A stretch of DNA of 64,000 nucleotides from Alphaproteobacteria bacterium (GCA_004292755.1 RDXE01000037.1:1-64000); one strand, 5' to 3'; counted from the stretch's first letter, positions 24,220 through 48,651 are shown. Made by a program: numbers and translations. Notes: generated from the letters alone by a model not told the origin.

Positions 24220-24394
24220 CGAAAGCTCCCTCTCTGCGCATCCGCAGGATCGAGGAGCGACGCTACTGGGGCAGGTAGCCAGAGTCAGCCCCAGTTGATG
24301 GGACAGCCGGAGTACGATTTCGCTGTGCCGCTTCGTCGCAAACCCCGATAGAGTGACGCCGCGGGCGGAGAGGCCGAGAGCGGGGTTCGGGCAG

Positions 24395-25510
24395 ATGAGT
24401 GGAGAGCGCGCTAACCAAACGGTTGCAACTGACTGGTCGCTGCGACTGGCAGTCGTCGCAGGATTTTTGATGGTGGCTGGTCCAGCTGCAGCGCAAACCC
24501 AGGAAGTGGGTGCCAGCTTGGGCTGGACCGCGGCGGGTGTGTTGCTGCTGGTGGTGATTGCACTTGCGGTGCGTAGCGCCGGACGCACCCGTCTGTTGCT
24601 GGACATGGAGACGGCGATCCGTCGCCTGGCGGCCGGTGAGGCTGTCGCTGTGGAGGAGCTGCCGCAGGTGCCGCTGCATCAGGTGGGTGGCGTCGCGGCT
24701 GATGGCTTACGGCGATTGCACCAGCGTCTGGCTGGCGGCGACAGCCTGCAGACCGAGGTGTCGACCAGCATCCGCCAAGTCGCGACGGCCGCTTCCCAGG
24801 CGACCACGGCGATCGGACAAGTGAGTGAGGGCAGTCGGGTTCAGCTCGCCTCCCTTGGTCAGGTGTCCAAAGCCCTGGATCAGACCACGACGGCGCTGGC
24901 CGATGTTCTGGCCTCCACCGTCTCTGCCTCGGAACAGGCCCGATTGGCCGCAGCGCGGGTCAATGATGGCCTGGACAGCATGGGGCGGATGGTCGAAGTG
25001 GTGGGCGGTATCGCTGGCTCCAGCCAGGAAGTGAGCCGGATCGCTGATACCATTGCCGGGATTGCGCAGCAGACCAACATGCTGTCACTCAACGCGGCAA
25101 TTGAAGCAGCGCGCGCAGGTGAGCATGGCCGCGGCTTTGCCGTGGTGGCCGAAGAGGTGCGTAAGCTGGCGGAAAGCTCTGGCCAGCTTGCCAATGAAAT
25201 CGCCGATCTGGTGCGCCAATCGACCGAGCGGGCGCAGGAAAGTGTGACCGTGGCAGAAACTGTCAGCGGCACCATTCAGCAGATCGCGGACAGTGTGCGC
25301 GCGCAGGAGCGTTTGGCGAGCGCGATTGCAACCGCGATGGAGGAACAGCAAGCAACCGTGCGCGACATCAACATCAACGTCGCGGACCTTGCGCGGATCG
25401 GTCAGTCGAATGCGACTGCAGCCGAGGAAATCACCGTCACCATGCGTGACCTCGCCCGGCTGGCAGACGCCACCCGCAGCATGGTTGACCGCGTCGCGGC
25501 TGCCGGGTGA
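24395..25510 (+). CDS. Methyl-accepting chemotaxis protein without periplasmic sensor domain
   Basis: A 371-residue MCP. Two closely spaced hydrophobic segments (about 16-35 and 44-62) leave no room for a ligand domain outside the cell. No clear HAMP domain follows. The cytoplasmic part is a long coiled coil with the conserved hairpin tip [20 protein letters not shown] and [15 protein letters not shown]. It probably senses a membrane-linked or cytoplasmic cue and controls the CheA encoded downstream. It is the first gene of the operon. Its TGA overlaps the GTG of cheR. Confidence 0.88.
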
Positions 25511-26562
25511 GGACGTACCCGGTGGGGGATCTTGAGGCGACGCTGGAGGAACTCACCCGGGTGATGGATGCCCATCGGCGGGCACTTGCCCAGCCGACGG
25601 GGGGAGCCGAGGGCGACGGCGCGACCAGTGCGCCGCCCCCAGAGTCAGCCCGCAAGCCCACACAGGGGGACGACCCGACACCAGCGGTGGACTCGCCGCG
25701 GGCCGCAGCGCTGTCCAGTCTGATGGCGGCGGTCCAGGCGCGGATTGGCTTGAAGGCGCTCGACACCGTCAGTGGCAAGCTGGAGCGGGCGCTCAGCACC
25801 TTGGATGATGCCGCCGTGACGGCGTGGGTCGAGCGGATGCTGAGCCTCTCGGTCGATCATGCCGAGTGGGTGGCGCTCGCGGAAAGCCTGACGGTTCATG
25901 AAAGTTATCTGTTCCGTGATCCCCAGCAGTTGGAGGCAATCCGCCACTGGCTGGGTGATCAAGTGCGCGGGATGAAGCGACGGGGCGAGGCGCGCTCGCT
26001 GCGTCTCTGGTCGGCTGGCTGTGCTGCCGGGGAAGAGGTTTACACTTTGGCCCTGCTTGGCTTTGCGGTGCTGCAAGCCGAGGGTGCGGCCATCGATTCG
26101 GCCAATGATGGCTGGCTTGCCCTGCCCAACTGGGGGCTGGATGTGCTGGGCACGGACCTGTCGCGTGCAGTCCTAAAAACGGCTGAGACAGGGATCTATA
26201 ACACCGGGCGCCTGTCTGCCTTTCGCGATCTGCCAGCGGCCTACGAGCGATTCTTCGGTCCCGGCCCGGTGCGCAGCACACGGATGGTGCGGGCCGATGT
26301 GCGGCGCGTGGTGCGGTTTCGTCCGGCCAATCTGCTGGCACCAGCGCCGGAGCGCGGGTTTGATGTTGTCGCGTGTCGCAATGTGTTGATTTACATGGAC
26401 GCCGCATCGCGCCAAACCGTATTGCGGCACTTGATCGGGGCCTTACGGCCTGGGGGCTTGTTGGCGCTGGGGCCAACGGATGTGCTGGCAGAGCCAGCCG
26501 GGGTGACAGCACTGGGCGGCTCTGCCGTAGGGTTGTTCCGCAAAGGGGGTGGCGATGGCTAG
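25507..26562 (+). CDS. cheR: CheR chemoreceptor methyltransferase
   Basis: The 351-residue protein transfers methyl groups from SAM to receptor glutamates. The first ~70 residues are a nonconserved extension. The CheR core shows [15 protein letters not shown], the SAM loop [34 protein letters not shown] and [12 protein letters not shown]. The GTG start overlaps the MCP stop (GTGA). It works against the CheB encoded two genes downstream to set receptor adaptation. Confidence 0.92.
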
Positions 26563-27943
26563 CGGCGTGCGCGACACCGAGGCGTCAACCACATGGGTGC
26601 TGTTCGAGCTGGGAGCGACTGTGTGTGCGCTGCCCGCCAGCACCGTGCTGAGTGTGTTGGAGCCAACCCCGCCAACGCGTGTGCCATTCGCGCCTCCCAG
26701 CATCATCGGCTTGATTGCCGATGCGGGCGGGGTGATGCCGCTCGTTGACCCGAAGCAACTGCTGTTTGAAACCGCCTCTGCCGTGGCGGAAGCCCCAGTG
26801 GATGCCGAGCCTGCGGTGCTCCGCTGCCGTTTTGGTGCCAGTTTGGTCGGCCTCCTGGTGGATCGGCTCCTGCTGCTGGCGGAGATTGACCCCAGCCATG
26901 TGATGCGCGACGCCGAAGCGGGCAGTGTGCTGGCGGGTACCTGGTCCTGGCGCGAGCGCACGGTGCTGTTGCTGCAGCCGGGCCCCCTTGACCTTGCAGA
27001 CTTGAACCCGGTCCTGCCAGACACCGGTGTTGGCGGGTGGGTGGGCACAGCCGCCAGCCAGAGCCGCGAGGTGCGCCAGACCCTTGGCGATCCGATGATC
27101 GTGGTCGCGATTGGCAGCGAGCAGTACGCCATTCCAGTCGCCGATGTTGGGGAGATCGTCACCGCCGGTCCCACCACGCCCGTGCCGAAGGCGCCACCCG
27201 AGGTGGCAGGCATCGGTGTGTTGCGCCGGGAGCCGCTGTTGATGCTGCGGCTGGATCGACTGCTGCAACGCACGGGGTTGGAGCCGCGCTCTTACATCGT
27301 GGTCGAGCGGCCTGAGGTTGGACGCTTCGGACTGTTGTTTGACCGGGTGATCGGCTTGCGTCGCTATCGGGCGAAGTCGCAGCACGGCATCCTGGAAACC
27401 CGCCACGGGCTGGACGGCTATTTTCTGGAGAGTGATGGCGTCGTCACCCCATCGATTGACCTAGCACGGCTGGTCGATGCGGACTTGGTTCGCCAATTCG
27501 CCGGTGGCAATGCTGACCGTCGTCAGGTGCAGCGGGCCGATCTACGCCAATTCCTCAGCTTTGCCGTCGGTGGCGAGATGTTCGCGCTGCCGATTGATGC
27601 GGTGGATCGTGTGCTGACCTGGCGAGCGCCGACGCCGCTGCCGGGTGGCGAGGCGGGTGCCCTGCTGGGCGTCATTGAGTTGCAGGGGGAAGTGGTGCCG
27701 GTGGGCGACCTTAATCGGCGCCTTGGCATTGCAGCCGATGGCTCAGCCGGTGCGCTGCTGGTGGTGCGCAGCGAGGTCGGCCACACGGCCTTCGGCGTTG
27801 ACCGGGTGCACCGCATCATCAGCGTGCCCGTCACCGCGATTGAGGCGGTTGGCGGCGGCAATGATGCTGTGGTGGAGATCGGTCGCATCGAGGACCGCTT
27901 GTTCTGGATCCTGTCTGCCGATCGATTGGCGAGTGCCGCATGA
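26555..27943 (+). CDS. Triple CheW-domain coupling protein
   Basis: The 462 residues consist of three CheW-like domains in a row (about 8-150, 172-305 and 325-460). Segments such as VCALPASTVLSVLEPTPPTR, YAIPVADVGEIVTAG and MFALPIDAVDRVL mark the first strand of each. Normal CheW has one domain and links receptor to CheA. A three-domain protein could bridge several partners in the array. ATG 26555 is preferred over GTG 26549 because of the AAAGGGGG site. It overlaps cheR by 8 bp and cheB by ATGA. Confidence 0.85.
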   Translation: MASGVRDTEASTTWVLFELGATVCALPASTVLSVLEPTPPTRVPFAPPSIIGLIADAGGVMPLVDPKQLLFETASAVAEAPVDAEPAVLRCRFGASLVGLLVDRLLLLAEIDPSHVMRDAEAGSVLAGTWSWRERTVLLLQPGPLDLADLNPVLPDTGVGGWVGTAASQSREVRQTLGDPMIVVAIGSEQYAIPVADVGEIVTAGPTTPVPKAPPEVAGIGVLRREPLLMLRLDRLLQRTGLEPRSYIVVERPEVGRFGLLFDRVIGLRRYRAKSQHGILETRHGLDGYFLESDGVVTPSIDLARLVDADLVRQFAGGNADRRQVQRADLRQFLSFAVGGEMFALPIDAVDRVLTWRAPTPLPGGEAGALLGVIELQGEVVPVGDLNRRLGIAADGSAGALLVVRSEVGHTAFGVDRVHRIISVPVTAIEAVGGGNDAVVEIGRIEDRLFWILSADRLASAA

Positions 27944-29148
27944 GCGCAGCGGCCCCCACTGGCGGTGATCTGCCAATCCGCGTTCTCATCGTGGATGATA
28001 GCGGCTTTATGCGCATTGCCTTGCGCCAGATGCTGCAGGCGGAGCCGGACATTGAGGTGGTGGGCGAGGCACGCGACGGTCTGTCGGCGATGCGGATGGC
28101 GCAGGACCTTCGCCCCGACGTCATCACCATGGACGTCGAAATGCCGGGCCAGGATGGGCTGGAAACCACCCGGCAGATTCTGCGCACGATTGAGCCGCCA
28201 CCGCCGGTGATCATGGTCTCCAGCCACACCCAGTCGGGTGCGGAAACGACGGTGAAGGCACTGTCGCTGGGTGCGGTTGACTTCGTTTCCAAATCTTCAG
28301 CGTTTTTGAAGACCGATCTTGGTCAGATCGATGCGGAGTTGCGGCAGAAGATCAAGCTGTGGGGGCGCAAACGCGGCGGACGATCGGCTGGCGCCGGGCT
28401 CAGCGCGCCCGTACCCCCACCGCCACCCCCCGCTGTCTCACTGGCTGCTGTCTCGACGCCACCAGCGCCGGAGACTGCGTTGTCCTTGCTGCGGGCGGCC
28501 CAGCGTCCAGCTGCGGGTGCAGCGACACCAGAGGCTGGGTCCAAGGCCAAGCAGCCACCGGTGGCCCGTCCACCGCGTCAACCCGTCGATGTCATCGTGA
28601 TCGGGGTGTCGACTGGTGGGCCGCGGATCATGACGGAGTTCCTGGCGCAGATCGGGCCGATCGGCACACCGATTGTGATCGCCCAGCACATGCCCGAGGT
28701 GTTCACCGCAAGCTTCGCCGAACAGTTGAAGCGCGAGACTGGGTTGCAGGTGGTTGAGGCAAGCCACAAGATGGCGCTGCAGCCCGGAATGATTGCGATT
28801 CTTCCCGGCGGACGCGACGGGGTCCTGGCGCCAGCCGGTGGTGGTAAACTGGAGGTGCGGGTGGTGACCTCCAACCGCACTGTGCACCCCAACGCCGATA
28901 TGCTCTTCCACTCCGCTGCTATGTTGGCTCAAAACCCCGTTGCCGTGATCCTGACCGGCATGGGCGAGGATGGTACCGATGGTGCTGCTCAATTCGTGCG
29001 TCGCGGTGCCCCGGTGTTGGTTCAGGAGCCAGAAAGTTGTGTGGTCGGGGGCATGCCCCAAGCCGCAATTGACGCTGGCGTTGCTGGCGATGTTTTAAGT
29101 CTGGATCAGATCGCGTTCCGGCTGGCGCGCTGGAGTGCGACCAAATAA
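27940..29148 (+). CDS. cheB: CheB methylesterase response regulator
   Basis: The protein has 402 residues. The receiver domain (about 13-125) has Asp19/Asp20 in LIVDDSGFMR and phospho-acceptor Asp65 in ITMDVEMPG. A Pro/Ala-rich linker (about 145-205) leads to the methylesterase domain with the catalytic Ser in IGVSTGGPR, His in IAQHMPEVFT and Asp in GMGEDGTDGA. All catalytic residues are present. It removes methyl groups from the MCP after phosphorylation by CheA. Confidence 0.93.
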   Translation: MSAAAPTGGDLPIRVLIVDDSGFMRIALRQMLQAEPDIEVVGEARDGLSAMRMAQDLRPDVITMDVEMPGQDGLETTRQILRTIEPPPPVIMVSSHTQSGAETTVKALSLGAVDFVSKSSAFLKTDLGQIDAELRQKIKLWGRKRGGRSAGAGLSAPVPPPPPPAVSLAAVSTPPAPETALSLLRAAQRPAAGAATPEAGSKAKQPPVARPPRQPVDVIVIGVSTGGPRIMTEFLAQIGPIGTPIVIAQHMPEVFTASFAEQLKRETGLQVVEASHKMALQPGMIAILPGGRDGVLAPAGGGKLEVRVVTSNRTVHPNADMLFHSAAMLAQNPVAVILTGMGEDGTDGAAQFVRRGAPVLVQEPESCVVGGMPQAAIDAGVAGDVLSLDQIAFRLARWSATK

Positions 29149-29179
29149 CCTGCAGTCCCTGACGCCCACGGAAAGACCG

Positions 29180-29590
29180 ATGCCGAAGACGATTCTGATT
29201 GTCGATGACTCGTTCATCATGCGGACGATCATAAAGGACATCGTTGAAAGCGATGGGGACCTGTCTGTGTGTGGCATGGCGGAAAACGGCAAGGTCGGCT
29301 TGCAGAAAGTGCGCGAGCTGAAGCCGGACCTCGTGCTGCTGGACATCGAGATGCCCGAGATGAGCGGCCTGGAGATGCTGAAGCGCCTGATGCTGGTGCG
29401 CCGCCAGAAGGTGATCATCATCTCCTCCGTCGCGCAGACCGGGTCACCTCAAGCCCTGGAGGCGCGGCGGTTGGGGGCAACCGATGTGATCGCCAAACCC
29501 TCTGGTGCGATGAGCCTCGATCTCAATGAGAAGAAGGGTCACGACATCGTTCGCGCGATTCGCCGGGCGTTGGAGTTGGATGCGGCATGA
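29180..29590 (+). CDS. cheY: CheY-like single-domain response regulator
   Basis: The protein has 136 residues and is a receiver domain only. Asp9/Asp10 are in ILIVDDSFIM, phosphorylatable Asp55 is in LVLLDIEMPE, and a conserved Lys lies in DVIAKPSG. The sequence resembles the CheB receiver more than classical CheY, so it may be a sink or an output regulator. It is the only stand-alone output protein of this operon besides the cyclase. ATG 29180 has GGAAAGA upstream. Confidence 0.85.
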   Translation: MPKTILIVDDSFIMRTIIKDIVESDGDLSVCGMAENGKVGLQKVRELKPDLVLLDIEMPEMSGLEMLKRLMLVRRQKVIIISSVAQTGSPQALEARRLGATDVIAKPSGAMSLDLNEKKGHDIVRAIRRALELDAA

Positions 29591-29594
29591 CCGA

Positions 29595-29607
29595 GGACAG
29601 TCTGTCC
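29595..29607. other. Short palindrome between cheY and cheA
   Basis: GGACAG-T-CTGTCC is a perfect 6-bp inverted repeat in the 156-bp gap between cheY and cheA, the longest gap inside this operon. It may be chance or a processing or regulatory site. Confidence 0.25.
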
Positions 29608-29746
29608 CCCGGTGTCGGGTGACGGTTAGAGCAACGCGTGGTCAGCGGGGATCACCGGATCACGAGAAGATGCTCCTAAAGCAAAGACCTGGATCGGGGT
29701 CGCGGAGCGTAAGCACCCGGCGATGGGTCCAGGGGGAGGTGGGGGG

Positions 29747-32700
29747 ATGAACGATCTGGTCGAAACCCTCTGGGGTCAATTCGGTGTCGAGACGGAAGAA
29801 CATCTCGACCTGATTGAGCCCTTGTTGGCACGCGCCGGCCCAGATGGCGTCGATGCCGACGGCATTGGCCAGTTGTTCCGCTCGTTTCACTCGATCAAGG
29901 GCCTTGCCCGCGCCATGGATTTGTTGGCGATGGAGCGGGTGGCCCACCAGTCGGAGAATCTGCTGGGCTTGGTGCGCGATGGCAGCGTGCCGTTGGACGC
30001 GCGTCTGGTTGATAATCTGCTGCAAGCCGTTGATAGCCTGAAGGCCTTGCGCGAAGTGGCGATTGCCACCCGGGCTGATGGCGAGATGCCCGATGAGCTG
30101 GTGGACCAGCTGGCGCGGATGTTCGCCGCCCTGTCGGGTCAACCGGTGTCGGCGGCCAGCCCGCCGCCCCCGCCACCCGCATCCACCAGTGCTCCGCCAG
30201 CCACGGCACCGGAGCCGGGGGAGGCAGGTGACTCAAGCGCGGTGTTCGACCTCCACGAAGACCCAGAAATGCTGGCGATCTTTGTGGAGATGGTGCAAAC
30301 GCGCCTGCCGGAGCTTGCCCTCGCCCTCGATGCAGAGCGGACCGACGGCGGCGCACTGGCCGCTGAAGCCGCCGAAGCCATCAGCTACGCCGCCACCGTG
30401 ATGGAATTCCAGCGGGTCGCGGAAGACCTGGAGCGTCTGGCCCGCAGCATTCCAACCGATCACCAGCCCGATGCCGAAGAACGCCGCGCGTTGTTGCTGC
30501 AGATCGGCGACATTCGCGAGCAAATGGCGTTTGTCGGCGAGGCAACGGGCCAGGATGTTGGCGCCGATGTGCTGGCCGACGTCCTGGCACAATTCATCCG
30601 CGATGATCTGGCCAGCCTGATTCAAGAACTGGCCGATGCCTACGGCCATATCGAGATGGACGCCTCCGAGGGCGATCTCGATGCGCTGTACACCGACAGC
30701 GGCGAGTTTGCCGAAGTGGCCCGGCGGGTATTCGCCGTGGTCAGCAGCGTCGGCTGCCAGAGCTTGGGCCGTTTGTTGCTGTTGCTGGCGGATGTTTATC
30801 ACCGGGTGGCGTCGGGCGATTTGATGCCCGCGATCGAGTTGTTTGAAGCGACCACGCCTATCCTGGAAGCTGTTGACCTGCGCGCTGCGCTCACGGCCGG
30901 TGACCCGATCACCGATCTTGATCCAGCTGTGGAGGCTGAGCTGAGCCGCGGCTTCCGCCAAGCTCTGGCCGTGATGTCCGGCGAGAGCATCGCGGAGACG
31001 GCGGGGGCTGGCGCTGTGGTCGCCGGTCTGCACTTGAAGCCAGAAATGATGGAGGTGCTGTCAGGCGATGCGCAGGCGCGGCTGACCGCTGCCTTGGGCG
31101 AGGCGGGCACCTATGCCTACGAACTCACCCTGCATCTGGAAAGCACCAGCGAGGCGGCCGGAAACTTCGTTGAGTGGCTTTCAACCGCCGTGGAGTCCAT
31201 CACCAACCGCACCGTGTTGATGGATACCGAGAGTTGGTTTGAGTTCCTGGTGCTGGCGAAGCTGCCGCCAGAGGAGATGCAGACCCAGCTTGCCACCTTG
31301 GACCCCGGCCTCGATTGCTTGAAGGCCGCAGCCCAAGTGACGGCAGAGCCCGGTGGTCGGCCACTGGTTGGGGCTGCTCCGCCGCCAGCAGCGGCACCAA
31401 GCGAGCCACCACCACCACCACCACCAGCCGCGGTTGCGCGCGTCCCGTCTGGGGAGGCGGCATCGAGCCAGCCCGCTGCTCCGCCGTCTGATGGCGAAGG
31501 GCAGGCCCGTCCGGCGCCAGCACGGCCGGCCGCCAAACCCGCCGTGGAGGCGAAGGGTCAGGCATCCAGCCAGGTGCTGCGTGTCCGCTCTGAGACCATC
31601 GACGGGTTTATGAGCCAGATCAGCGAGTTGCGCGTCGCGGTGACGGGCATCGCGATGCTCAACGAAGACACCCGCTGGCCCACTGCGCTTGCGACCTTGC
31701 GGCGGGTGATCGAGGCGCTGCCGAGTGACACGCAGGGAGAAGGGGTTAATGCCCTGCAGGTATTGGCCGACTACTTGCGCCAGGTGCGTGGCTTTGAGGA
31801 ACGGCTGGACAGTCTGCTCGGACGCTTGAATGCCAATGCGCTTGATCTGCGCGTGGTGCCCATCGACACCATCTTCAATCGGTTCCCCCGTGCCGTGCGC
31901 GACTTGGCCCAAGCCCAAGGTAAGGATATCCGGCTGGTGCTGGAAGGCCGCGATGTCCGCGTTGACAAGGGCATGGTGGAACTGCTGGTCGATCCTTTGA
32001 TGCACATGGTGCGCAACGGCATCGACCACGGCATCGAACCACCAGATCAGCGTGAAGCTGCGGGCAAGCCTGCGGAAGCAACCCTGGCCTTGCGCGCCCA
32101 GCAGCGTGGTGCGGAAGTTGTCGTTGACGTTGTTGATGACGGTCGCGGCCTGGATGTCGACGCGATTGGTGCCAAGGCTGTGGAGCGTGGGCTGACCACG
32201 GCCGCTGAGTTGGCCCGTCTGACGCCGCGCCAGATCTTCCGCTTCATCTTTGCGCCGGGCTTCTCCACGGCCAAGCAGGTGACGGAGACCTCGGGTCGCG
32301 GTGTCGGCATGGATGTTGTGCTCACCTCGGTCAACAAGCTGGGTGGGGACATCGAGATATCGTCCGAGCGTGGGCGCGGCACCACCATCACCCTGCGTCT
32401 GCCGCTGTCTGCTGCTTTGCAAAGCGCGTTGCTGGTGGAAGCAGATGGGCAGTTCTTGGGCATTCCAGAGCGCCATATCACCGCCATCGCCACCGTGGCG
32501 CCGGACCAGATTCAGTATGTGAGCGGCCAGCCCGCCATCGTCCATCGCAACGCCTTCCTGCCCATCTATCCCCTGGGTGCACTGCTGGGCATGGGAGAGG
32601 CTCAGCCGATCCGCGACGTGCGCCAGGTCGTGATCCTGTCCAATGGTCGCAATGCCATCGGTGTTGCAGTTGATCGCCTGCTGCGCCGTCAGGAACTGTT

Positions 32701-32842
32701 CTTGAAGGACTTGCACCCAGCACTGGCAGCTCTGCCAGCGATCGGTGGCGCCTCGGTGCTTGGCGATGGCCGGGTGGTGCTGGTGCTGGATGTGGATGGG
32801 TTGATCCAGGTGGCGCAGCGCGGTGCTGCGGCAGCTGCCTGA
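29747..32842 (+). CDS. cheA: CheA histidine kinase, unusually long
   Basis: The protein has 1031 residues; classical CheA has about 650. It starts with an Hpt domain holding the phospho-acceptor His48 in FRSFHSIKGLARAMD. Two or three more helical, Hpt-like regions lack this His (about 160-250 and 275-370), and Pro-rich linkers lie near 130-160 and 540-600. The kinase core has VDPLMHMVRNGIDHGIEPP, VDDGRGLD and TSGRGVGMDVV, followed by a C-terminal CheW-like domain. The layout recalls ChpA/PilL-type kinases of type IV pili systems, although their many Hpt histidines are missing. ATG 29747 has an AGGTGGGGGG site. Confidence 0.9.
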   Translation: MNDLVETLWGQFGVETEEHLDLIEPLLARAGPDGVDADGIGQLFRSFHSIKGLARAMDLLAMERVAHQSENLLGLVRDGSVPLDARLVDNLLQAVDSLKALREVAIATRADGEMPDELVDQLARMFAALSGQPVSAASPPPPPPASTSAPPATAPEPGEAGDSSAVFDLHEDPEMLAIFVEMVQTRLPELALALDAERTDGGALAAEAAEAISYAATVMEFQRVAEDLERLARSIPTDHQPDAEERRALLLQIGDIREQMAFVGEATGQDVGADVLADVLAQFIRDDLASLIQELADAYGHIEMDASEGDLDALYTDSGEFAEVARRVFAVVSSVGCQSLGRLLLLLADVYHRVASGDLMPAIELFEATTPILEAVDLRAALTAGDPITDLDPAVEAELSRGFRQALAVMSGESIAETAGAGAVVAGLHLKPEMMEVLSGDAQARLTAALGEAGTYAYELTLHLESTSEAAGNFVEWLSTAVESITNRTVLMDTESWFEFLVLAKLPPEEMQTQLATLDPGLDCLKAAAQVTAEPGGRPLVGAAPPPAAAPSEPPPPPPPAAVARVPSGEAASSQPAAPPSDGEGQARPAPARPAAKPAVEAKGQASSQVLRVRSETIDGFMSQISELRVAVTGIAMLNEDTRWPTALATLRRVIEALPSDTQGEGVNALQVLADYLRQVRGFEERLDSLLGRLNANALDLRVVPIDTIFNRFPRAVRDLAQAQGKDIRLVLEGRDVRVDKGMVELLVDPLMHMVRNGIDHGIEPPDQREAAGKPAEATLALRAQQRGAEVVVDVVDDGRGLDVDAIGAKAVERGLTTAAELARLTPRQIFRFIFAPGFSTAKQVTETSGRGVGMDVVLTSVNKLGGDIEISSERGRGTTITLRLPLSAALQSALLVEADGQFLGIPERHITAIATVAPDQIQYVSGQPAIVHRNAFLPIYPLGALLGMGEAQPIRDVRQVVILSNGRNAIGVAVDRLLRRQELFLKDLHPALAALPAIGGASVLGDGRVVLVLDVDGLIQVAQRGAAAAA

Positions 32843-33252
32843 TGACCACCGTGCTCGCCACTGTGATCGGCCCCTACGGCCTCGCGATTGAGGCGGCACG
32901 GGTGCGCGAACTGCTGCCAGCCACGGAGGCTGCCGCCGAGGAGGGCGGGCGGGCCCGTCGGCTGTGGCGCGGTCAGGCCTTGCAGTTGATTGATCTGCGC
33001 AGCCTGTTCGGGTGCCCCCTGGTAGCGCCAGCCGTCGAGGTGGTGGTGGGCGATGACCACGCCTCCGCCACTTTGGCGCTGGTGGTTGATCGGGTGTTGG
33101 GACTGCACACGCTGGCAGGGCAGGAGTGGTGCCCGATCCCCCATGTCGGCGCAATCGAGGCCTTGTGCGACAGTGTCTCTGCCGAACCCATCGGCGAGCG
33201 TTTGCTGTTTCGCCTGCGCGCGACACCGGATTTCAGCGCGGTTGGAGTGTGA
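32842..33252 (+). CDS. CheW-like coupling protein
   Basis: A single CheW-type domain of 136 residues (PYGLAIEAARVRELLPATEA, LQLIDLRSLFG and LALVVDRVLGLHTL). It is shorter and more divergent than standard CheW and resembles the coupling proteins at the end of alternative chemosensory operons. The start overlaps the cheA stop (TGATG), so the two are translated together. Confidence 0.82.
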   Translation: MTTVLATVIGPYGLAIEAARVRELLPATEAAAEEGGRARRLWRGQALQLIDLRSLFGCPLVAPAVEVVVGDDHASATLALVVDRVLGLHTLAGQEWCPIPHVGAIEALCDSVSAEPIGERLLFRLRATPDFSAVGV

Positions 33253-33301
33253 TGCCCCGCCCCCAGTGCGCAGGGGCTTGGGTGAAGGGAAGGCCGTGAC
33301 G

Positions 33302-35566
33302 ATGATGACCGCCTCAATGACCTTTTCCTCGCTTGGTCAAGCGTTGTTGCGCCATCGCCTCGCAGCACCCGATGGGGCGGCTGCAGCGATTGACGGCATG
33401 GGGGCCATTGCCGACCTGTTAACCCTTGACCAGGGGTTGTTGAGTGGTCAGCCCGTTTCCCAGACCGTCATCAAGGTGATGCGCGCGCTCGCCTGGGCGT
33501 GTGAGGCGGAAACAGGACGCTTGTTCTGCGCGGCACCGGGGGGACAGGGATTCTTGTGCTTCGACAATCGCGGCGCGATTGTCGCCTCGCTGTGTGTGCC
33601 AATGCTGGCGGGGTTGACCGGCGCCGCGCTGGATGCCGACCACCCCACGATCTGGGCCGATGCGGCCAGCCAGCGCCAGTACGACCGGACGTTCGATGAT
33701 GTTGGGGCTGCCCTCGCCCTGGTGCCGCTCTATCGCGCGGATGAGCCCATTGGCGTGGTGCAGCTTGGCGGGCCGCGGTTCGCGGCTGAGATCGCCGATT
33801 TGCTGCAGCACGCAGCGCCCACCATTTCCGAAGCCCTGGCGATTGCCACCCCCCAGTTGGCGGTGACGGTGGAAGAGATTGGCAGCGGCGATGCCGGTGC
33901 CTCTCAGCTGGATCAAATCAGTGGCGTGGTGCTTGCCACCGCCCTCGACATGCTGGAGGCGGACCGCGCGGCCGTGTTCCTGCACGACCGGACAACTGAC
34001 CAGTTGGTCAGCCGGACCAACCTTGGCTATGGCCCGGTAGAGGTACGCCAGTCGGCCCGTGCGGGGCTGGAAGGGGCGGTGTTCCGCGACGGTGTCGCGA
34101 TGGCGGTGCCGGATGTGTACCAGGACCCGCGCTTCAATCCTTTGTTGGATCGGCGTACCCAGTATCGCACGCGCTCCCTCCTGGTTGTGCCGGTGGAGGG
34201 CAGTTCCGGGCATCGCCATGGCGTGGTGACGTTTGCCAACAGCGCCAAAGGCAGCTTCAGCGAAGCCGATGAACGGCGTGCCCGCGCGCTGGTCTCCCAG
34301 ATCGGCCTTGCCATCGATCATGCCCAGACCCGCGATGAAGTGCTGGGCATCAAGGACTATACCGAGCGGGTGCTGGCCTCGCTCACCAATGGCGTGCTCA
34401 CGATCGACGTCGCAGGGCAGCTGACCTTCCACAACAGCGCGGCGGAGCGAATCCTGCGCCGCTCTCTCGATGGGTTGCGCGGTCAGCCTGTGGGTGAAGT
34501 GTTTACCGACTACAATGCCTGGATGCTGGAAGCGATCGACGCGGTTGCCGACGATCCAGCAGGCCAGCAGGTGGTGACCAACGATCTGTATATTGAAAGC
34601 GATGATAGCTGGGTGGCGGTCAACATCACGATCGCTGCCATGAAGGACCGCAGTGACACCCTGGTCGGGTTTATGCTGGTGCTGGAAGATGTTAGCCGCG
34701 AGCAAGAATTGCGGCGGACGATGTCGCGCTATATGTCCAACGAAGTTGTAGACCGACTGATCTCTGACAGTTCGATCCAGCTGGGTGGGCAAAGCCAGAC
34801 TGTCACGGTGCTGTTTTCAGACATCCGCGGCTTTACCGCGCTGACTGAGCGCTTGGGTGCCGCAGAAACCGTGACCATGCTGAATACCTACTTCTCCTTC
34901 ATGGAGGACGTGATCGCGAACCGCAGCGGCGTGGTCGACAAGTATATCGGCGATGCCATCATGGCGTTGTTCGGCGCACCCATTCCTTCTGATCGCGATC
35001 CAGATAACGCAGTGCAGGCGGCGATGGACATGCTGACCGCACTGACCATGCTGAACCAGCGCCGTCAGGCCGAGGGCATGATGCCGATCAAAATCGGCAT
35101 GGGCATCGCGACGGGCGCCGTGATCACCGGCAACATCGGGTCAGCCAAGCGGATGGATTACACGGTGATCGGCGACCCCGTGAATCTCGCCAGCCGCATG
35201 GAAAGTCTAACCAAGCTGTACGGCGCGCAGGTGGTGATCGATGGCGATACCGAGGAGCGTTTGACCCTTGATGTGCCGCGACGGGTGCTGGACTTGGTTC
35301 GGGTTCGCGGTCAGTCGAAGGTTGTGCGCTTCGTCGAGGTGTTGATCGGCTCTGGCGCAGACCGTGTGGCGGGCATGGAGTTCTATCGCGAGGGCTTTGA
35401 TCACTATGTTGCAGGGCGGTTCAGTGCGGCCTTGCCCGCCTTCACAGCGGCCCTGCAGGCCTGTCCCACCGATCGGGCGGCCGGGGTGATGATTGATCGC
35501 TGTCAGAAGCTGATTGCGAATCCACCCGAAGACTGGGATGGCGTGACCCGCTTCGGCGACCGCTAG
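33302..35566 (+). CDS. Class III adenylate cyclase with GAF and PAS domains
   Basis: The protein has 754 residues. Two GAF-like domains (about 25-180 and 200-345), a PAS domain (about 355-470) and a class III cyclase domain (about 500-680) follow in order, with a short TPR-like tail. The metal-binding aspartates are Asp507 (LFSDIRGFT) and Asp551 (GDAIMALFG). Lys547 and Asp619 (MDYTVIGD) are the adenine-selecting pair, and NLASRME supplies the transition-state residues. It should make cAMP. It lies 49 bp after the cheW-like gene. ATG 33302 follows AAGGGAAGG. The position suggests control by the chemosensory system. Confidence 0.88.
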   Translation: MMTASMTFSSLGQALLRHRLAAPDGAAAAIDGMGAIADLLTLDQGLLSGQPVSQTVIKVMRALAWACEAETGRLFCAAPGGQGFLCFDNRGAIVASLCVPMLAGLTGAALDADHPTIWADAASQRQYDRTFDDVGAALALVPLYRADEPIGVVQLGGPRFAAEIADLLQHAAPTISEALAIATPQLAVTVEEIGSGDAGASQLDQISGVVLATALDMLEADRAAVFLHDRTTDQLVSRTNLGYGPVEVRQSARAGLEGAVFRDGVAMAVPDVYQDPRFNPLLDRRTQYRTRSLLVVPVEGSSGHRHGVVTFANSAKGSFSEADERRARALVSQIGLAIDHAQTRDEVLGIKDYTERVLASLTNGVLTIDVAGQLTFHNSAAERILRRSLDGLRGQPVGEVFTDYNAWMLEAIDAVADDPAGQQVVTNDLYIESDDSWVAVNITIAAMKDRSDTLVGFMLVLEDVSREQELRRTMSRYMSNEVVDRLISDSSIQLGGQSQTVTVLFSDIRGFTALTERLGAAETVTMLNTYFSFMEDVIANRSGVVDKYIGDAIMALFGAPIPSDRDPDNAVQAAMDMLTALTMLNQRRQAEGMMPIKIGMGIATGAVITGNIGSAKRMDYTVIGDPVNLASRMESLTKLYGAQVVIDGDTEERLTLDVPRRVLDLVRVRGQSKVVRFVEVLIGSGADRVAGMEFYREGFDHYVAGRFSAALPAFTAALQACPTDRAAGVMIDRCQKLIANPPEDWDGVTRFGDR

Positions 35567-35602: not shown

Positions 35603-35623
35603 GCAAAGCTCGACGCGCTTTGC
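35603..35623. promoter_or_regulatory. Inverted repeat just upstream of the zorA-like gene
   Basis: GCAAAGC-N7-GCTTTGC is a perfect 7-bp inverted repeat ending 23 bp before the zorA-like ATG at 35647. It could be an operator or an mRNA hairpin that affects translation. The RBS-like GGAGGG (35628-35633) lies between it and the ATG. Confidence 0.4.
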
Positions 35624-35646
35624 TGCCGGAGGGTACGGTCCGCGCC

Positions 35647-37143
35647 ATGTTTGGTTCTCCCGACGGCCTTGCCGGCCTTGCGATCTCGCTGCTGGACGTG
35701 TTTCGCGACATCGAAGTCGCGGTCACGCTCGCCCTTATCCTCGCTGGCGGTGGTGTGCTGCTGCTGCTGTGGTTTGCCCTTGGCATCGCAGCCCCTGCTT
35801 TCGCCCAGATCGGCCGCGCGATCCGCGTGGTGCGGGGGGCCGAGACCCGGGGCCGCTTCGCCCAGTTGCTGCCGGAGGTGGATCAGGTCCTGGGACGTCA
35901 GCGCCTGCTGCGCTCTGGCTGGGCCCGCTATCGCCAGGGCTTCGTCGCGTCCCCCCCTGGTGTTGGGGACCCCTGGCGGGCGCGCTCGTCTGCGGCGCGC
36001 TATTACAGCCTGAGTGGGTTGGAGCAGGCAGGCCTTGACCTGAAGCTGTTCCAGGCGCTGCCGAACTATTTCATCGGCGTTGGCTTGATGCTCACCTTCA
36101 TGGGGTTGGTGGCAGCACTCTACTTTGCCTCGCAAGGTGTGGGCAGTGCCGACGTTAAGGACGCCCAGGCGGCCCTTGGCTCCTTGCTGCAAGCGGCGAC
36201 CTTCAAGTTCCTGACCTCGATTGCAGGCTTGTTTGCCTCGCTGGTGCTGTCGATTGGCTATCGGTTGTTGACCATCGAGTTGGGGCGCCGGGCAGATCGC
36301 TTGGCCCGCCTGCTGGATGACCGTGTTCCCGTGCTCGACCCAGCCGAACAAGGCGCACAGCAGGTGCGGCTGCTGGAGCAGATGCCCGGCATCCTGGCCC
36401 AGCGCATCGGCGAAGAGTTTGAGATCCGCCTGCGCGACACCCTGCCGGAGATCTTGGCCGACGCGACCGACCGGTTCGGTGCCAGCGGCAATGATCCCGT
36501 GGGGCAGATGCGGCTGTTGATGGAAGAGTTCCGCGCGGCCTTGAGCCAGTCGACCTTTGCGGAATTGCAGGGGCTGGCGGACGCGCTGATTGAAATCCGC
36601 GGCTCGTTGCGTGGGTTGCACACCGGCTTTCGCGACAGCGGCGATGATTTTGCCAAGCGCGTGGAGCAAAGCTCAGCGGCGTGGCAAACCAACATTCTCG
36701 ATAGTGGTCGGGTGTTGCAGGACACCTTGGCGCAGATTGAGCAGACCGCTAGCAAACTGCGCCTTGCCGCCGAGCCCGTGGGCAAAGTGGCGGAGCGGTT
36801 TGACAAGGCAGCCCAGGATATTGTCGCCGCAGCCGATGCCATCCTGCGCTCCCAGGGCCAGATGGGACAGGTTGCCGAGGGGCTGGGCCAGACAGCCAAT
36901 GTGCTGAAAGCCTCCATGACCGAGTATCGAGAGCGCTTCGCCGAGGTTGATCGCTCGCTTGGGCAAGCCTTCAAGGTGTTTGCCGAGGGGTCGGAAACCC
37001 AGCGCCGCCATATCCAAGATTTCGTGCGCGAGGTTGACCAGCACCTCGACAAGGCGCTGAGCGCGCTTGGCACGGGTGTGGCCGAACTGACTCAAAGCGT
37101 GGAAGACCTGCAACGCACGTTGGCCAGCGGTCGCACCCCATGA
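35647..37143 (+). CDS. zorA: ZorA-like MotA/TolQ/ExbB proton channel with long helical tail
   Basis: The protein has 498 residues. Membrane helices are at about 23-45, 141-161 and 185-208. The last two hold the MotA/TolQ/ExbB core (LPNYFIGVGLMLTFMGLVAA and FKFLTSIAGLFASLVLSIGY), with Thr150 and Thr190 as likely polar pore residues. Residues 215-498 are almost entirely helical and charged, without membrane segments, as in the cytoplasmic tail of ZorA. That tail distinguishes it from MotA, TolQ and ExbB. ATG 35647 has GGAGGG, but at a long distance (13 nt). It is coupled to zorB by ATGA. ZorA of type I systems is longer (around 700 residues). Confidence 0.85.
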   Translation: MFGSPDGLAGLAISLLDVFRDIEVAVTLALILAGGGVLLLLWFALGIAAPAFAQIGRAIRVVRGAETRGRFAQLLPEVDQVLGRQRLLRSGWARYRQGFVASPPGVGDPWRARSSAARYYSLSGLEQAGLDLKLFQALPNYFIGVGLMLTFMGLVAALYFASQGVGSADVKDAQAALGSLLQAATFKFLTSIAGLFASLVLSIGYRLLTIELGRRADRLARLLDDRVPVLDPAEQGAQQVRLLEQMPGILAQRIGEEFEIRLRDTLPEILADATDRFGASGNDPVGQMRLLMEEFRAALSQSTFAELQGLADALIEIRGSLRGLHTGFRDSGDDFAKRVEQSSAAWQTNILDSGRVLQDTLAQIEQTASKLRLAAEPVGKVAERFDKAAQDIVAAADAILRSQGQMGQVAEGLGQTANVLKASMTEYRERFAEVDRSLGQAFKVFAEGSETQRRHIQDFVREVDQHLDKALSALGTGVAELTQSVEDLQRTLASGRTP

Positions 37144-37898
37144 GCGACAGCACGGACATCCTCGAAGACCGCGAGGAAAGCTACTTCGTCTCCATGACCG
37201 ACTTGATGGTCGGCATGGTGTTCATCTTCGTGATCATCTTGATGTCCTTCGCCCTCAGCTTGAAGGAGGCGGAACGCTCCAACCGCCAGACCGTCGAGCA
37301 GGTGGCCAATGTCGATGTCGCCCGCGGTGACATGCTGGAGCGGCTGCGCCAGTACCTTGCCGAGCGCGGGGTCTCGGTGGAGGTTGTGTGGGAGCACGGC
37401 GTGCTGCGTCTGCCGGAGGATGTGCTGTTCGCCTCAGGCCGGGCCGAGCTGTCGCCCGAGGGCCTGACGAACCTCGCCGCCCTCGCCAATGGCTTGCGGG
37501 CGGTGCTGCCTTGCTACGCCGGTGCTGCGTGGCAGCCGGAAACCTGCGGCGAAACCTATGGCGGGCGCCTGGAAGCGGTGTTGATCGAAGGGCACACCGA
37601 TAGCGATCCCGTCAGCCCGGCTGCGTGGTTTCGCTCCAACCTCGGGCTGTCGGCATTCCGCGCCATCAACACCCTCGACCGCATCGTCCAGGTGGAGCCG
37701 GTGCTGTCACAGTTGGCCAATGACCGCGGGGAGCCGCTGTTTGGCGTCGGTGGCTATGGCGAGTCCCGCCGTCGGGTGATGGATGAGCGCACCGATGCGG
37801 ACAAGCGTCTGAACCGCCGGATCGACTTGCGGTTCTTGATGGCCACGCCGCGCCCGCCGGAGTTGGAACGAGTGGAGCGGGAGTTGCGCCCACAATGA
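37140..37898 (+). CDS. zorB: ZorB-like OmpA-domain stator protein
   Basis: The protein has 252 residues. A short cytoplasmic N-terminus leads into one membrane helix that starts FVSMTDLMVGMVFIFVIILM. Asp21 sits at the position of the proton-carrying Asp of MotB and ZorB. A short linker and an OmpA/MotB peptidoglycan-binding domain follow (LPEDVLFASGRAEL, VLIEGHTDSDPV, DKRLNRRIDLRF). The SMTDLM start is characteristic of ZorB rather than MotB, TolR or ExbD. It should assemble with the ZorA-like protein as an ion-driven, cell-wall-anchored complex. It overlaps both neighbours by ATGA. Confidence 0.87.
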   Translation: MSDSTDILEDREESYFVSMTDLMVGMVFIFVIILMSFALSLKEAERSNRQTVEQVANVDVARGDMLERLRQYLAERGVSVEVVWEHGVLRLPEDVLFASGRAELSPEGLTNLAALANGLRAVLPCYAGAAWQPETCGETYGGRLEAVLIEGHTDSDPVSPAAWFRSNLGLSAFRAINTLDRIVQVEPVLSQLANDRGEPLFGVGGYGESRRRVMDERTDADKRLNRRIDLRFLMATPRPPELERVERELRPQ

Positions 37899-39235
37899 CC
37901 CTGCGCGCGGCGCTGCGCTATCTGGCACGACCAGAGGGGCCGGAGCCTTTGCCGCCAGCCCCGACTGTGGCCGCAACAGCCGAGCGTCTGGCGGATCGTT
38001 ACCCTGACCGTGACCTGCGCCCACCTCCGGAGGTGGCCGCCGCCGCCGCAGCCCGGGTGGTGGACCGGATCACCGCCTCCGCCCCGCGTGAGATCGCCCG
38101 GGCAGACTGGCGCGAGGTCGTCTGGCACCTGTGGCGTGGTACTCCGGCGCTGGTGGACCATCCGATTGCCTTTGAGCTGTACCTCAAATGGCTGGAGAAG
38201 CTGGCGCGGCGCACGGCCTGGGCGCGGCTCGCCCAAGTGTGGATGGCGGAGTTTCACAGCGGTCGACCGCACCTTGATCGCATCGGCGCACTGCTGGCCG
38301 ACGCACCGCTGATCTGGAGTTGGCGCCAGCGCCACCAGCGGTATGGCGTGTTCGATCCCGTTGGCGGGCCGGAGCGATTGGCGCGGGAGGTGCTAAAGGC
38401 ACCGGTCCCGGTGATTGAGACACTGGCGGCTGCTGGAATCGCGCCTTGGTTGCTGGATGGTGGCTTCGCCGAGGCCGCGTTCGCGGCTGCCCTTGGCTTG
38501 GTGCGCGCGATTGGTCCGGATGCCACCGTGCAAGGCCGCTTGCTTGATAAGTTGATGCCGTGGGCCTTCGCGGCCCAGGACGGCAGCTTGGCGCTGCGCT
38601 ATCCCGTGCAGCGGCGGTTGGTGCTGCAGGCCCTGCTGATGCCGTGGCGTCAGAGCCTGCCACCGGCGGACTTGCGAGCACGGGTTCTGGGGTTGGTTGC
38701 GGCGATCGCGCGGGAGCCGCGGCGTTTCCCGCAGGATTGGCCGGAGCCGGAACCAGTGCAGGTGCTGGGACGCCTGTTGGCCGAGGACGCAATCGATCGC
38801 TTCTGCCAAGTGGTCGAAGCCCTTGGCTATGAGAATGAATGGGCCTATCGGCGCAGCTTCTGGGGCGGCTATCAGCAGGCCGGTGCTGTGCGCGACGCGC
38901 GTCTGGTTGTGCCGGGGGAGCGGGCAGGACCCTGGCAAGCCTTGGTCGACAGTGGGCGGGAGAGTGTGTTGCTGGTTGATCTCGGTCGGGTGATCGCAGC
39001 CGACTTCAGCCATGGCGGCAAACTGTATCTCTGGCGTTCGTCTAACCCGGCTGCTCCTGCCCTAGGGCAGGAGCGCTATGGGCTGGAGCAGTTGACCCGC
39101 CACTCCGACAATCGCGGTCTTGCCCACTCGCGCCCCGACCTGGGTACCTGGCAGCGGGAGGCGGCCCATTGGCTGGCCCGCGAGGCAGGCATCGACCTCA
39201 GCCAGCGCGACTACATGCCGTCGGGCTGGCGCTAG
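37895..39235 (+). CDS. zorC: ZorC-like EH_signature-domain protein
   Basis: The protein has 446 residues with no membrane segment. The N-terminal ~290 residues are helical. The C-terminal ~150 show the pattern I associate with the EH_signature domain of ZorC: WAYRRSFWGGYQQAG, VIAADFSHGGKLYLW (Asp370, His373) and HSRPDLGTWQREAAHWLARE (His411). In Zorya type I, ZorC is a cytosolic DNA-binding effector used together with the ZorD helicase/nuclease. The assignment rests on these motifs and on the position behind zorAB. In this copy an Asp stands where I would expect a family acidic residue, possibly Glu. It is the last gene of the three-gene unit; no zorD follows. Confidence 0.75.
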   Translation: MTLRAALRYLARPEGPEPLPPAPTVAATAERLADRYPDRDLRPPPEVAAAAAARVVDRITASAPREIARADWREVVWHLWRGTPALVDHPIAFELYLKWLEKLARRTAWARLAQVWMAEFHSGRPHLDRIGALLADAPLIWSWRQRHQRYGVFDPVGGPERLAREVLKAPVPVIETLAAAGIAPWLLDGGFAEAAFAAALGLVRAIGPDATVQGRLLDKLMPWAFAAQDGSLALRYPVQRRLVLQALLMPWRQSLPPADLRARVLGLVAAIAREPRRFPQDWPEPEPVQVLGRLLAEDAIDRFCQVVEALGYENEWAYRRSFWGGYQQAGAVRDARLVVPGERAGPWQALVDSGRESVLLVDLGRVIAADFSHGGKLYLWRSSNPAAPALGQERYGLEQLTRHSDNRGLAHSRPDLGTWQREAAHWLAREAGIDLSQRDYMPSGWR

Positions 39236-39244
39236 GGCAATCAC

Positions 39245-41164
39245 CTAAGCCAGGATGTAGAAGGCGATCCCTTCGTAGCGCATGTGCGGCAGACCGCTGA
39301 TCACAGCATCGCGCTCGGCTTCGGTTGCGGTGAAGAAGTGAACACCGGTTTGCGTGTTGAAGAACCGGTACAGCTCTTCTTGCGGGCCGAAGTCGCCCGC
39401 GAAGGCACGGTAGGCTGTGCCTTCGTAGCTGAGCGCCGGATTGTTGGCGCGAATGGAATCGCGTTCTGCCGTGCTTGAGGTGAAGAAGTGTGAGCCAGTT
39501 TGGGTGTTGAAGAACCGGAACACATCCATGGTCCCAACTGCGCCGGTGGGGGCAGAGAAGCTGGTTCCCTCAAACCGCATATGCGGCATGGTCTGCTGGA
39601 TCGTGTCGCGCTCGGTCACCGAGTTGGTGAAGAAATGGAAGCCGCCCTGTGTGTTGTAGAAGCGGAACACCGAGCTGGAGGGAGAGGTCGGCGGTGCCGT
39701 GACCGTGACCGATCCGGTGAGGGTGTATGCGACGGCTGATGCTTCATTGGGAGCACTGACCCCAATGAAATAGGTTCCTGGACTGTCGACTGTTACCTCG
39801 ACAGACTCATTCTCGACACTGGTCTGCGCGGATCGGCCTACCACAGCGCCAGCGCTACTATACACCGTGAGATCAGCGTTTCCGCCGAGCTTGGTCAATT
39901 GCGTGCTGATCGTCGCAGGACCAGTGATGGTGAAGCTGAAGAAATCAGCGAAATCTGACCCACCAACCGTTTGCGTTACAGATATCGTCGGGATGGAGAC
40001 GGCCGTGGCGACCGTGATGGTGTTGCCCGCATCACCCGCTGGCGTCGTCGGCGTGGTGGTGGTTGGTGTGATCGGTGTCGTGGGTGTTGTCGTGGTAGTC
40101 GTGGGTGTCGTAGCAGGAGCGCGCGGTGACACCGGCAGATAGGCGCCGATACTGGTGCCGCTTGGTGTCAAGGCACCGGTTAGGGTGTAGGGTGAGATGC
40201 CCCACAGATAGGGCTCAACGGACACCGTGTAGGCTTCCCCGGCATCGGCGGTGAATGTGACAGACTCGGCCGTCAGGCCGGCGCGTGTGCCCTCTGCAAG
40301 CAAGTAGCCGCTGGAGGTGTAGATGCGAACGTCCAAATCGGCCGACAGCCCGGACAGGCCGATCTTCATGGTGCCGTTAGAGCTTGCGATGAACCGATAA
40401 GTATCCCGCCACTCAGTGGCACTCAGCGTGTCGCTAAACGTAAAGTTCGGACTGGCAAAATCCATCGGCAACAGTAATTGGTCACCACCTTCCGTTCTTG
40501 GAGTCGGGCGGTTAGACGAGCCACCGTAAAGAATATTTGCCGCAAGCAGATCGTTGGGACCCAGGCTAGTCATCCCATTCACGAACGGATACATGATCTC
40601 CGTTCTAAGAGAGGAGTGTCCGAGCCCTATTGCGTGCCCCACCTCATGGATGGCGGTGCTGAGATACTCTGCAGTGGTGAAGCTGTCGCGGGAGTCGAAC
40701 GTGATCACCGAATGGGTTGTCGTGGTCCCCTGCCGCCACCAGTTGGCAGTGCCGACGGTACCACCAGGACCGTCAATCGCGCGCTCACCAACGCGGATTT
40801 GGGCGCCACCACCGTCAGAGACTTCGACAAAGTCAATGCCAGCAGAGGCTTCCCAAATATCAAACGCTTGTCGGACCAGGCCGCGATAGCTCGGGTCAAT
40901 CTGCGAGGTGATCTCTTGGTAACCTGTCACCGCTTGGGCGAACATCGCCGAAAGATCGAATTCCGCAAAGCTCCAGGTAATCCGCGCGCCACTTGTTCCT
41001 CCACCCCAGGACGAACCAGTCAGTGTATAGGGTGACGTACCACCTCCGCCGCCAGAGTTGGCGCTATCTGGTGTCCCAAGACCCAGACACAGGGCGCACA
41101 CACAGGTGACAGGGACGGACGCTCCTTGGAGCATGGAGGCGTCGACAGCAGAAGCGGTTAGCAT
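39245..41164 (-). CDS. Matrixin-like metalloprotease with PPC domains and three DUF5648 repeats
   Basis: The protein has 639 residues. The protease domain (about 60-215) has the zinc motif HEVGHAIGLGH (His173, Glu174, His177, His183) and the Met-turn IMYP (Met191). Two PPC-type beta domains follow (about 235-330 and 375-490), split by a Thr/Pro-rich linker. Three C-terminal repeats of about 45 residues (FRFYNTQGGFHFFT, FRFFNTQTGSHFFT, YRFFNTQTGVHFFT) match DUF5648. The N-terminus has cysteines in a hydrophobic stretch (VTCVCALCLGLG) but is not a clear signal peptide. It is probably a secreted or surface protease. It is convergent with the zorC-like gene, with 9 bp between the stops. Confidence 0.85.
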   Translation of the reverse strand: MLTASAVDASMLQGASVPVTCVCALCLGLGTPDSANSGGGGGTSPYTLTGSSWGGGTSGARITWSFAEFDLSAMFAQAVTGYQEITSQIDPSYRGLVRQAFDIWEASAGIDFVEVSDGGGAQIRVGERAIDGPGGTVGTANWWRQGTTTTHSVITFDSRDSFTTAEYLSTAIHEVGHAIGLGHSSLRTEIMYPFVNGMTSLGPNDLLAANILYGGSSNRPTPRTEGGDQLLLPMDFASPNFTFSDTLSATEWRDTYRFIASSNGTMKIGLSGLSADLDVRIYTSSGYLLAEGTRAGLTAESVTFTADAGEAYTVSVEPYLWGISPYTLTGALTPSGTSIGAYLPVSPRAPATTPTTTTTTPTTPITPTTTTPTTPAGDAGNTITVATAVSIPTISVTQTVGGSDFADFFSFTITGPATISTQLTKLGGNADLTVYSSAGAVVGRSAQTSVENESVEVTVDSPGTYFIGVSAPNEASAVAYTLTGSVTVTAPPTSPSSSVFRFYNTQGGFHFFTNSVTERDTIQQTMPHMRFEGTSFSAPTGAVGTMDVFRFFNTQTGSHFFTSSTAERDSIRANNPALSYEGTAYRAFAGDFGPQEELYRFFNTQTGVHFFTATEAERDAVISGLPHMRYEGIAFYILA

Positions 41165-47692: not shown

Positions 47693-48651
47693 GGTGTTGC
47701 CCCTGGATGGTGGCAGGCCACCAACCCGGCACTGCTGGCGCGCAGCTCCGGCATGTCCTCGCGGCACCGCTGGCTCACCCGCGCGCAGCGCTCCGCAAAG
47801 CGACAACCGGGTGGGGGTGGAGATAGGGATGGCAGGCCGCCGGGAATCTCCGTCAGCCGGGGCAGCATCGGCGCGTCGGGGCCAAAGGGTGGGCGTGCCG
47901 CCAGCAGCCCCTGGGTGTAGGGGTGCTGTGGGGTTGAGAACAGCGCATCGACGGCTGCCACCTCCACCAGCCGCCCAGCATAGAGCACGGCGACGCGATC
48001 GGCCAGCTCCGCCACCACACCAAGATCATGGGTGACAAGCAGCAGGGTCAGCCCCAGGTCCCGCTGCAAGTCTGCCAGCAGCCGCAGAATCTGGGCTTGT
48101 ATTGTGACGTCCAGCGCTGTGGTTGGTTCGTCCGCGATCAGCAGCCGTGGCTCCTGACCCAGGGCGATGGCAAGCGCGACCCGCTGGCGCATGCCACCCG
48201 ATAGTTCATGGGGCCACGCCTCCAGCAGCCGCTCGGCATCGGGCAGGCCAACAACATGCAGCAACCGACTGGCGGCGGCGCGACGCTCCGCGCGGCTGCC
48301 GGGCATCGTCTCGGCGATCTGATCACCGATGCGATGCACGGGGTTGAGGGCAGACATCGGGTCCTGGAACACCATCGCGATGCCGCCGCGTCGAAGATGC
48401 TGCAGTGCTGTCGGTGCTGCCCCGACGATCCCATGGCCTGCGACGTCAATCTGGCCACGGACGGAGGCGGCAGTGTCGAGCAACCCGGCGATCGCCAGAG
48501 CGAGGGTGGACTTGCCGGAGCCGCTTTCGCCAACTAACGCCAGCGTTTCGCCCGCAGCGACTGTGAGTGAGACATCGTCCAACGCGACCAACGGCGGGCG
48601 CCCGCGGCCTGTGAACACCACCGACAGGTTGCTGACGCGGAGCAGGCTCAT
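47689..48651 (-). CDS. dppD: Oligopeptide/dipeptide ABC transporter ATPase (DppD type)
   Basis: The protein has 320 residues, with Walker [17 protein letters not shown], signature [15 protein letters not shown] and Walker [13 protein letters not shown]. The C-terminal [12 protein letters not shown] motif and a [12 protein letters not shown] cluster are typical for DppD/OppD. It pairs with the DppF-type ATPase and overlaps both neighbouring genes by ATGA. Confidence 0.93.

Follow-up and report, generated by a model that had tools for sequence, protein, structure and literature searches.

A chemosensory operon with a class III adenylyl-type cyclase as its likely output in an alphaproteobacterium

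We analyzed a 64,000-nucleotide stretch of DNA from an alphaproteobacterium (GCA_004292755.1, RDXE01000037.1:1-64000), hereafter the window, in which eight genes at 24395-35566 on the plus strand encode a chemoreceptor (methyl-accepting chemotaxis protein, MCP), CheR, a triple-CheW protein, CheB, CheY, CheA, a divergent CheW and a GAF-PAS class III cyclase, as assigned from open reading frames (ORFs) and Pfam matches. We consider it likely that this operon specifies a self-contained chemosensory pathway with cyclic AMP (cAMP) as its output, exerted through phosphorylated CheY (CheY-P) on the PAS-cyclase. Because relatives keep the cyclase with the operon or fuse a receiver to the cyclase, the probable target of the pathway is cAMP and not swimming. 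The strongest single result for the predicted circuit, as read from comparative sequence, is this receiver-cyclase fusion.

Organization of the operon

The window lies on contig C18 of a 4.2 Mb genome assembled in 95 contigs (G000). The features of the operon are as follows.

24395..25510, plus strand: MCP (PF00015, 1.7e-36, the sole family matched; ORF 24353-25510, ATG at 24395)
25507..26562, plus strand: CheR methyltransferase (PF01739, 2.9e-37)
26549..27943, plus strand: triple-CheW scaffold protein of 464 aa (three PF01584 stretches, 4.4e-59)
27940..29148, plus strand: CheB, receiver (REC) plus methylesterase (PF01339, 6.3e-51; PF00072, 4.3e-26)
29180..29590, plus strand: CheY, a single receiver domain (PF00072, 2.4e-23; start set by comparison with the same-genus genome G001)
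29747..32842, plus strand: CheA of 1039 aa (PF01627, 1.3e-13; PF02518, 8.6e-17; PF01584, 9.9e-20; the ORF opens at 29723)
32842..33252, plus strand: divergent single CheW (PF01584, a weak match at 9.9e-7; 50% identical in G001)
33302..35566, plus strand: class III cyclase, GAF-PAS-cyclase with a C-terminal extension (PF00211, 7.9e-27; GAF, 5e-16; PAS, 1.3e-6)

MCP, CheW, CheA (with Hpt, ATPase and CheW domains), CheR, CheB and CheY are thus encoded together by Pfam assignment, and since this gene order and content recur in other genomes, the operon is not a chance arrangement. Four junctions overlap (MCP/CheR by 4 nt, CheR/CheW by 14 nt, CheW/CheB by 4 nt and CheA/CheW by 1 nt) and three are gaps (CheB-CheY, 31 nt; CheY-CheA, 132-156 nt; CheW-cyclase, 49 nt). 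A preliminary description of this DNA had proposed an eight-gene, one-direction chemosensory operon with a cyclase, formed of mostly overlapping genes and adjoined by no flagellar or pilus gene. All eight genes were recovered at the positions above, "mostly overlapping" is a fair account of the junctions, and Pfam scans of the flanks (18.2-24.6 kb and 35.6-41.2 kb) found no flagellar or pilus genes. The purine-rich sequence gaagggaagg precedes the cyclase start at 33302, and a promoter and terminator scan returned matches no more numerous than in shuffled sequence.

The MCP has two hydrophobic stretches, read from the sequence, with a very short loop between them; Pfam recognized no ligand-binding or HAMP domain in it, nor any TPR match in CheR. 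In CheA, an Hpt domain (residues 16-108, the only one seen by Pfam) is followed by a long middle region, HATPase_c and CheW, and the start at 29747 is supported by the start of the G001 protein (MNDLVETLW). The phospho-accepting His of CheA (FRSFHSIKG) and the receiver Asp and Lys of CheY are both present. No operon protein had a Pfam match to GGDEF, and the output enzyme is a PF00211 protein. The genome holds two further CheA loci (C67 and C92), so the window operon need not serve flagellar taxis.

Linkage and receiver fusion in related genomes

Relatives were surveyed by genome searches over samples (1999/2000 genomes), and the frequencies given here are sample frequencies. In the same-genus genome G001, the triple CheW, CheB, CheY, CheA and divergent CheW end contig C158, and contig C434 opens with the cyclase (73% identical). 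The two contigs share a 120-base sequence, placed at the very end of C158 and close to the start of C434 and differing at one position, which indicates that the cyclase follows CheW in this genome too.

A genome of another genus in the same family (G007) has a different order: triple CheW, a degenerate receiver-like ORF, CheA, REC-PAS-cyclase, MCP, CheR and CheB. A second genome of that genus (G008) agrees with this order as far as its two contigs reach. The fused receivers are 56-58% identical to the window CheY and keep the phosphorylation residues; in a tree they fell among the CheYs of the operons and apart from CheB and other receivers, with moderate support. Fusion of two parts in one species and their separate, side-by-side encoding in another is a well-established sign of joint function. 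Across the family, four genomes had both the operon and an orthologous cyclase and five had neither.

In a further genome (G129; contigs C46 and C183; L161 and L178), a che operon stops about 0.6 kb before a contig end and a GAF-PAS-cyclase lies near the start of the other contig. The ends of C46 and C183 do not overlap, and the cyclase could not be joined to the che operon.

Cyclase-linked operons beyond the family

A genome of another class (G399), found among 398 sampled genomes of the phylum, carries MCP, triple CheW, CheB, CheY, CheA, GAF-PAS-cyclase and CheR on one strand, with a CheY 66% identical to that of the window. A short ORF that separates CheA from the cyclase in this genome was considered as a second divergent CheW and rejected, having neither an alignment nor a Pfam match. 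Cyclase trees were built on the PAS-cyclase part, with larger sets run too. The five che-linked cyclases (window, G001, G007, G008 and G399) formed one clade, supported at 100/99, against 23 other homologues. Among 38 neighborhoods of related cyclases from other families, a che operon was present in G399 alone.

The CheA search of the phylum sample recovered the operon type in five genomes, three with a linked cyclase (G000, G399 and G594) and two without (G114 and G118). In G594, a receiver and a REC-cyclase come first, then a PAS-like ORF, and after it the MCP and the remaining operon genes; this REC-cyclase belongs to a different subfamily and bears a Lys/Asp pair. In G835, a relative of G594, the same REC-cyclase adjoins the same operon type. 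In another family, related REC-cyclases end che operons of different make-up (two in G955 and one in G865; L264, L265 and L266). Since the REC-cyclases of G594, G835, G955 and G865 differ from the window enzyme, recruitment of cyclases to chemosensory operons has involved at least two cyclase subfamilies. We lean toward the view that chemoreceptor-to-cAMP circuits form a dedicated family found in several lineages of the phylum. One cyclase clade would serve che operons in two classes, usually next to a free CheY and in one genus joined to the receiver, and a second, unrelated REC-cyclase family would have taken over this function in a different bacterial family.

The operon of G058 has a CheY 72% identical to that of the window and no adjoining cyclase; about 3-4 kb past its CheA lies a gene for a CRP/FNR-type regulator of the cyclic-nucleotide-binding kind (L162:4935-5789).

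Base-selecting residues of the cyclase

Domains and base-selecting codons of the cyclase were located by Pfam and by alignment.

33905..34318, plus strand: GAF domain (Pfam, residues 285-422 of P0008)
34364..34702, plus strand: PAS domain (Pfam; the first part common to the G007/G008 fusion)
34790..35332, plus strand: cyclase catalytic domain (PF00211)
34940..34942, plus strand: Lys547 codon, the adenine-selecting position (alignment; motif VDKYIGD)
35162..35164, plus strand: Thr621 codon, the second base-selecting position (alignment)

The metal-binding Asp507 and Asp551 and the Asn628/Arg632 pair are present (PF00211, alignment). The preliminary description had Lys547 and Asp619 select adenine and, on that basis, named cAMP as the expected product. 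Lys547 held up under alignment. Asp619 did not: counted from the start at 33302, its codon (35156-35158) specifies the D of RMDYTVIGD, two residues before Thr621, which is the true second position, and the Asp619 position is unconserved, with Asn in G007 and G008 and Ser in G399. Thr621 fits the class III adenylyl cyclase pattern, in which the second base-selecting residue is Asp or Thr, and the Lys and Thr are retained in G001, G007, G008 and G399.

The aligned 2w01 cyclase of Synechocystis, which we take to be Cya2, a guanylate cyclase, has Glu at the Lys547 position and Gly at the Thr621 position, while CyaB of Pseudomonas aeruginosa (3r5g) agrees with the window enzyme in having Lys and Thr. 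The E488K variant of Cya2 shows adenylyl cyclase activity, so that Lys decides for ATP in this homologue (PMC5995499). With the Lys547/Thr621 pair replacing the Asp619 argument, ATP is still the expected substrate and cAMP the expected product, a prediction kept for a corrected reason. A structure prediction from two sequences gave a mean predicted local distance difference test (pLDDT) score of 34 and was not used.

Proposed pathway and alternative explanations

In the pathway we propose, the membrane-anchored MCP, held by CheW proteins, would control CheA autophosphorylation, with adaptation set by CheR and CheB. CheA would hand phosphate to the operon CheY, and CheY-P would act on the PAS-cyclase at the operon end and change cAMP synthesis in one direction or the other, the GAF/PAS part of the enzyme adding a second input. 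In the genus of G007 and G008 the same step may take place inside one polypeptide, with a CheY-like receiver in front of the PAS-cyclase. The 16 cyclic-nucleotide-binding-domain matches in the window genome mean that candidate cAMP receivers exist.

Several results weigh against this pathway. Eleven operons with related CheAs in other families of the class, several of them lying near contig ends, showed neither a cyclase nor a GGDEF motif within the 10-20 kb of DNA fetched, so the core pathway can have another output. The approximately unbiased (AU) test found that the CheAs of the family's two che-linked groups are not one clade (p = 0.0019, with long branches); it ruled out simple joint descent of cheA and the cyclase within the family, subject to the same long-branch caveat. 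Since these CheA groups do not form one clade, operon and cyclase do not appear to have simply co-descended: either the cyclase was present in an ancestral operon and was lost repeatedly, or it passed from one operon lineage to another. The window cyclase also lacks a built-in receiver, and an unrelated signal could act on its GAF/PAS part. Finally, the genome totals ten PF00211 matches, so the contribution of the window enzyme to the cAMP pool may be small. The preliminary description had named rarity of the cyclase beside this operon in relatives as what would speak against its compact chemoreceptor-to-cAMP circuit; the linkage holds inside the family and is rare outside it, where the 11 operons show no such enzyme in the DNA fetched. 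Comparative support for that circuit is strong (adjacency, fusion, the G399 operon and the cyclase clade), but a universal cyclase does not stand, and from these comparisons the cyclase is an output that an older type of operon has in some lineages and not a fixed part of it.

The operons with no cyclase in the DNA fetched would also fit a pathway whose output lies elsewhere, for example in motility or in an unlinked regulator reached by diffusible CheY, the cyclase being a hitch-hiker at the operon end, and GAF-PAS-cyclases are indeed common and stand alone elsewhere. We regard this as quite unlikely, as the adjacency is kept in several lineages across two classes, the che-linked cyclases form a single clade that includes the receiver fusion, and a second cyclase family occurs at the same operon type. 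It is also possible, although unlikely, that the cyclase is tied to the operon without CheY, held at the array by the divergent CheW or CheA or governed by a ligand of its GAF/PAS part, with feedback onto the chemosensory proteins. The divergent CheW adjoins the cyclase in both the window and G001, the enzyme has GAF and PAS domains of its own, and the G058 operon without a cyclase has the CRP-type protein past CheA; yet it is a receiver, not CheW, that G007 and G008 fuse to the PAS-cyclase, and the different cyclase family of G594 and G835 is likewise receiver-fused. That the circuit is real but makes cGMP is very improbable. Bacterial class III enzymes include guanylyl cyclases such as the homologue Cya2 (PMC5995499), and the domain family covers both activities, but the window enzyme has Lys where Cya2 has Glu and Thr where Cya2 has Gly, matches CyaB at both positions, and shares the pair with its relatives in G001, G007, G008 and G399.

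Neighboring genes in the window

Upstream of the operon, the neighbors are divergent genes for PLP-dependent enzymes. Downstream, genes for the Zorya-type defense proteins ZorA1, ZorB1 and ZorC1 (35620-39235) begin 53 bp past the cyclase; no ZorD was seen among the neighboring ORFs scanned. The next gene after ZorC1 encodes an M10 peptidase with DUF5648 (39245-41164, minus strand). In G001, 7.3 kb separate the cyclase from ZorA-ZorB, which are located at a contig end, and on this ground ZorABC was rejected as part of the circuit. Farther along the window (46712-48756), the PADLOC mad3 model matches each of two adjoining ORFs on the minus strand, in an arrangement like a tandem duplication.

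Comparison with known systems

The Pil-Chp system of P. aeruginosa has an operon that serves type IV pili and a cyclase whose gene lies apart from the chemosensory genes. The window operon differs in having its cyclase inside the operon and no adjacent pilus gene, and in having one CheY where Pil-Chp has two single-domain regulators, PilG and PilH; a further point of difference is the single Hpt domain that Pfam sees in its CheA. The two are alike in a chemoreceptor-CheA-CheY chain raising cAMP, which for the window is predicted from the genes. GAF-PAS class III cyclases that stand alone in the same phylum share the domain order of the window enzyme at about 32-44% identity, but have no adjoining che operon in the neighborhoods examined and fall outside the che-linked clade.

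PilG, a CheY-type regulator, activates the class III adenylyl cyclase CyaB, a separate protein (PMC12632253), which gives precedent for a CheY-type regulator acting on a separate cyclase. In Wsp, a CheA-like kinase works with WspR, a receiver-diguanylate cyclase (PMC6391922). Like the window operon, Wsp is a chemosensory array ending in a second-messenger cyclase, and the G007/G008 fusion has a WspR-like layout; the window instead has a PF00211 enzyme in place of GGDEF, with cAMP expected in place of c-di-GMP, and its receiver is a separate protein. A survey of CheR-TPR clusters, which belong with chemosensory clusters of alternative cellular function, gives mononucleotidyl cyclases, as a category only, among many receiver-fused outputs (PMC3447774). 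Compared with those clusters, the window CheR has no TPR match and the window cyclase is unfused, and a dedicated cyclase clade with a split and fused pair does not appear in the section consulted. Pil-Chp, offered in the preliminary description as the precedent, is therefore apt through PilG-CyaB but is not the sole one, receiver-mononucleotidyl-cyclase regulators being already present in the CheR-TPR account (PMC3447774). Among the papers searched, none dealt with this operon type.

Pil-Chp, with its cyclase encoded elsewhere, is the main known case of a chemoreceptor array controlling cAMP. The window brings kinase, switch and cyclase together in one apparent transcriptional unit. Since split (CheY plus cyclase) and fused (receiver-cyclase) forms both occur naturally, control of a class III cyclase by CheY-P should be testable with purified proteins.

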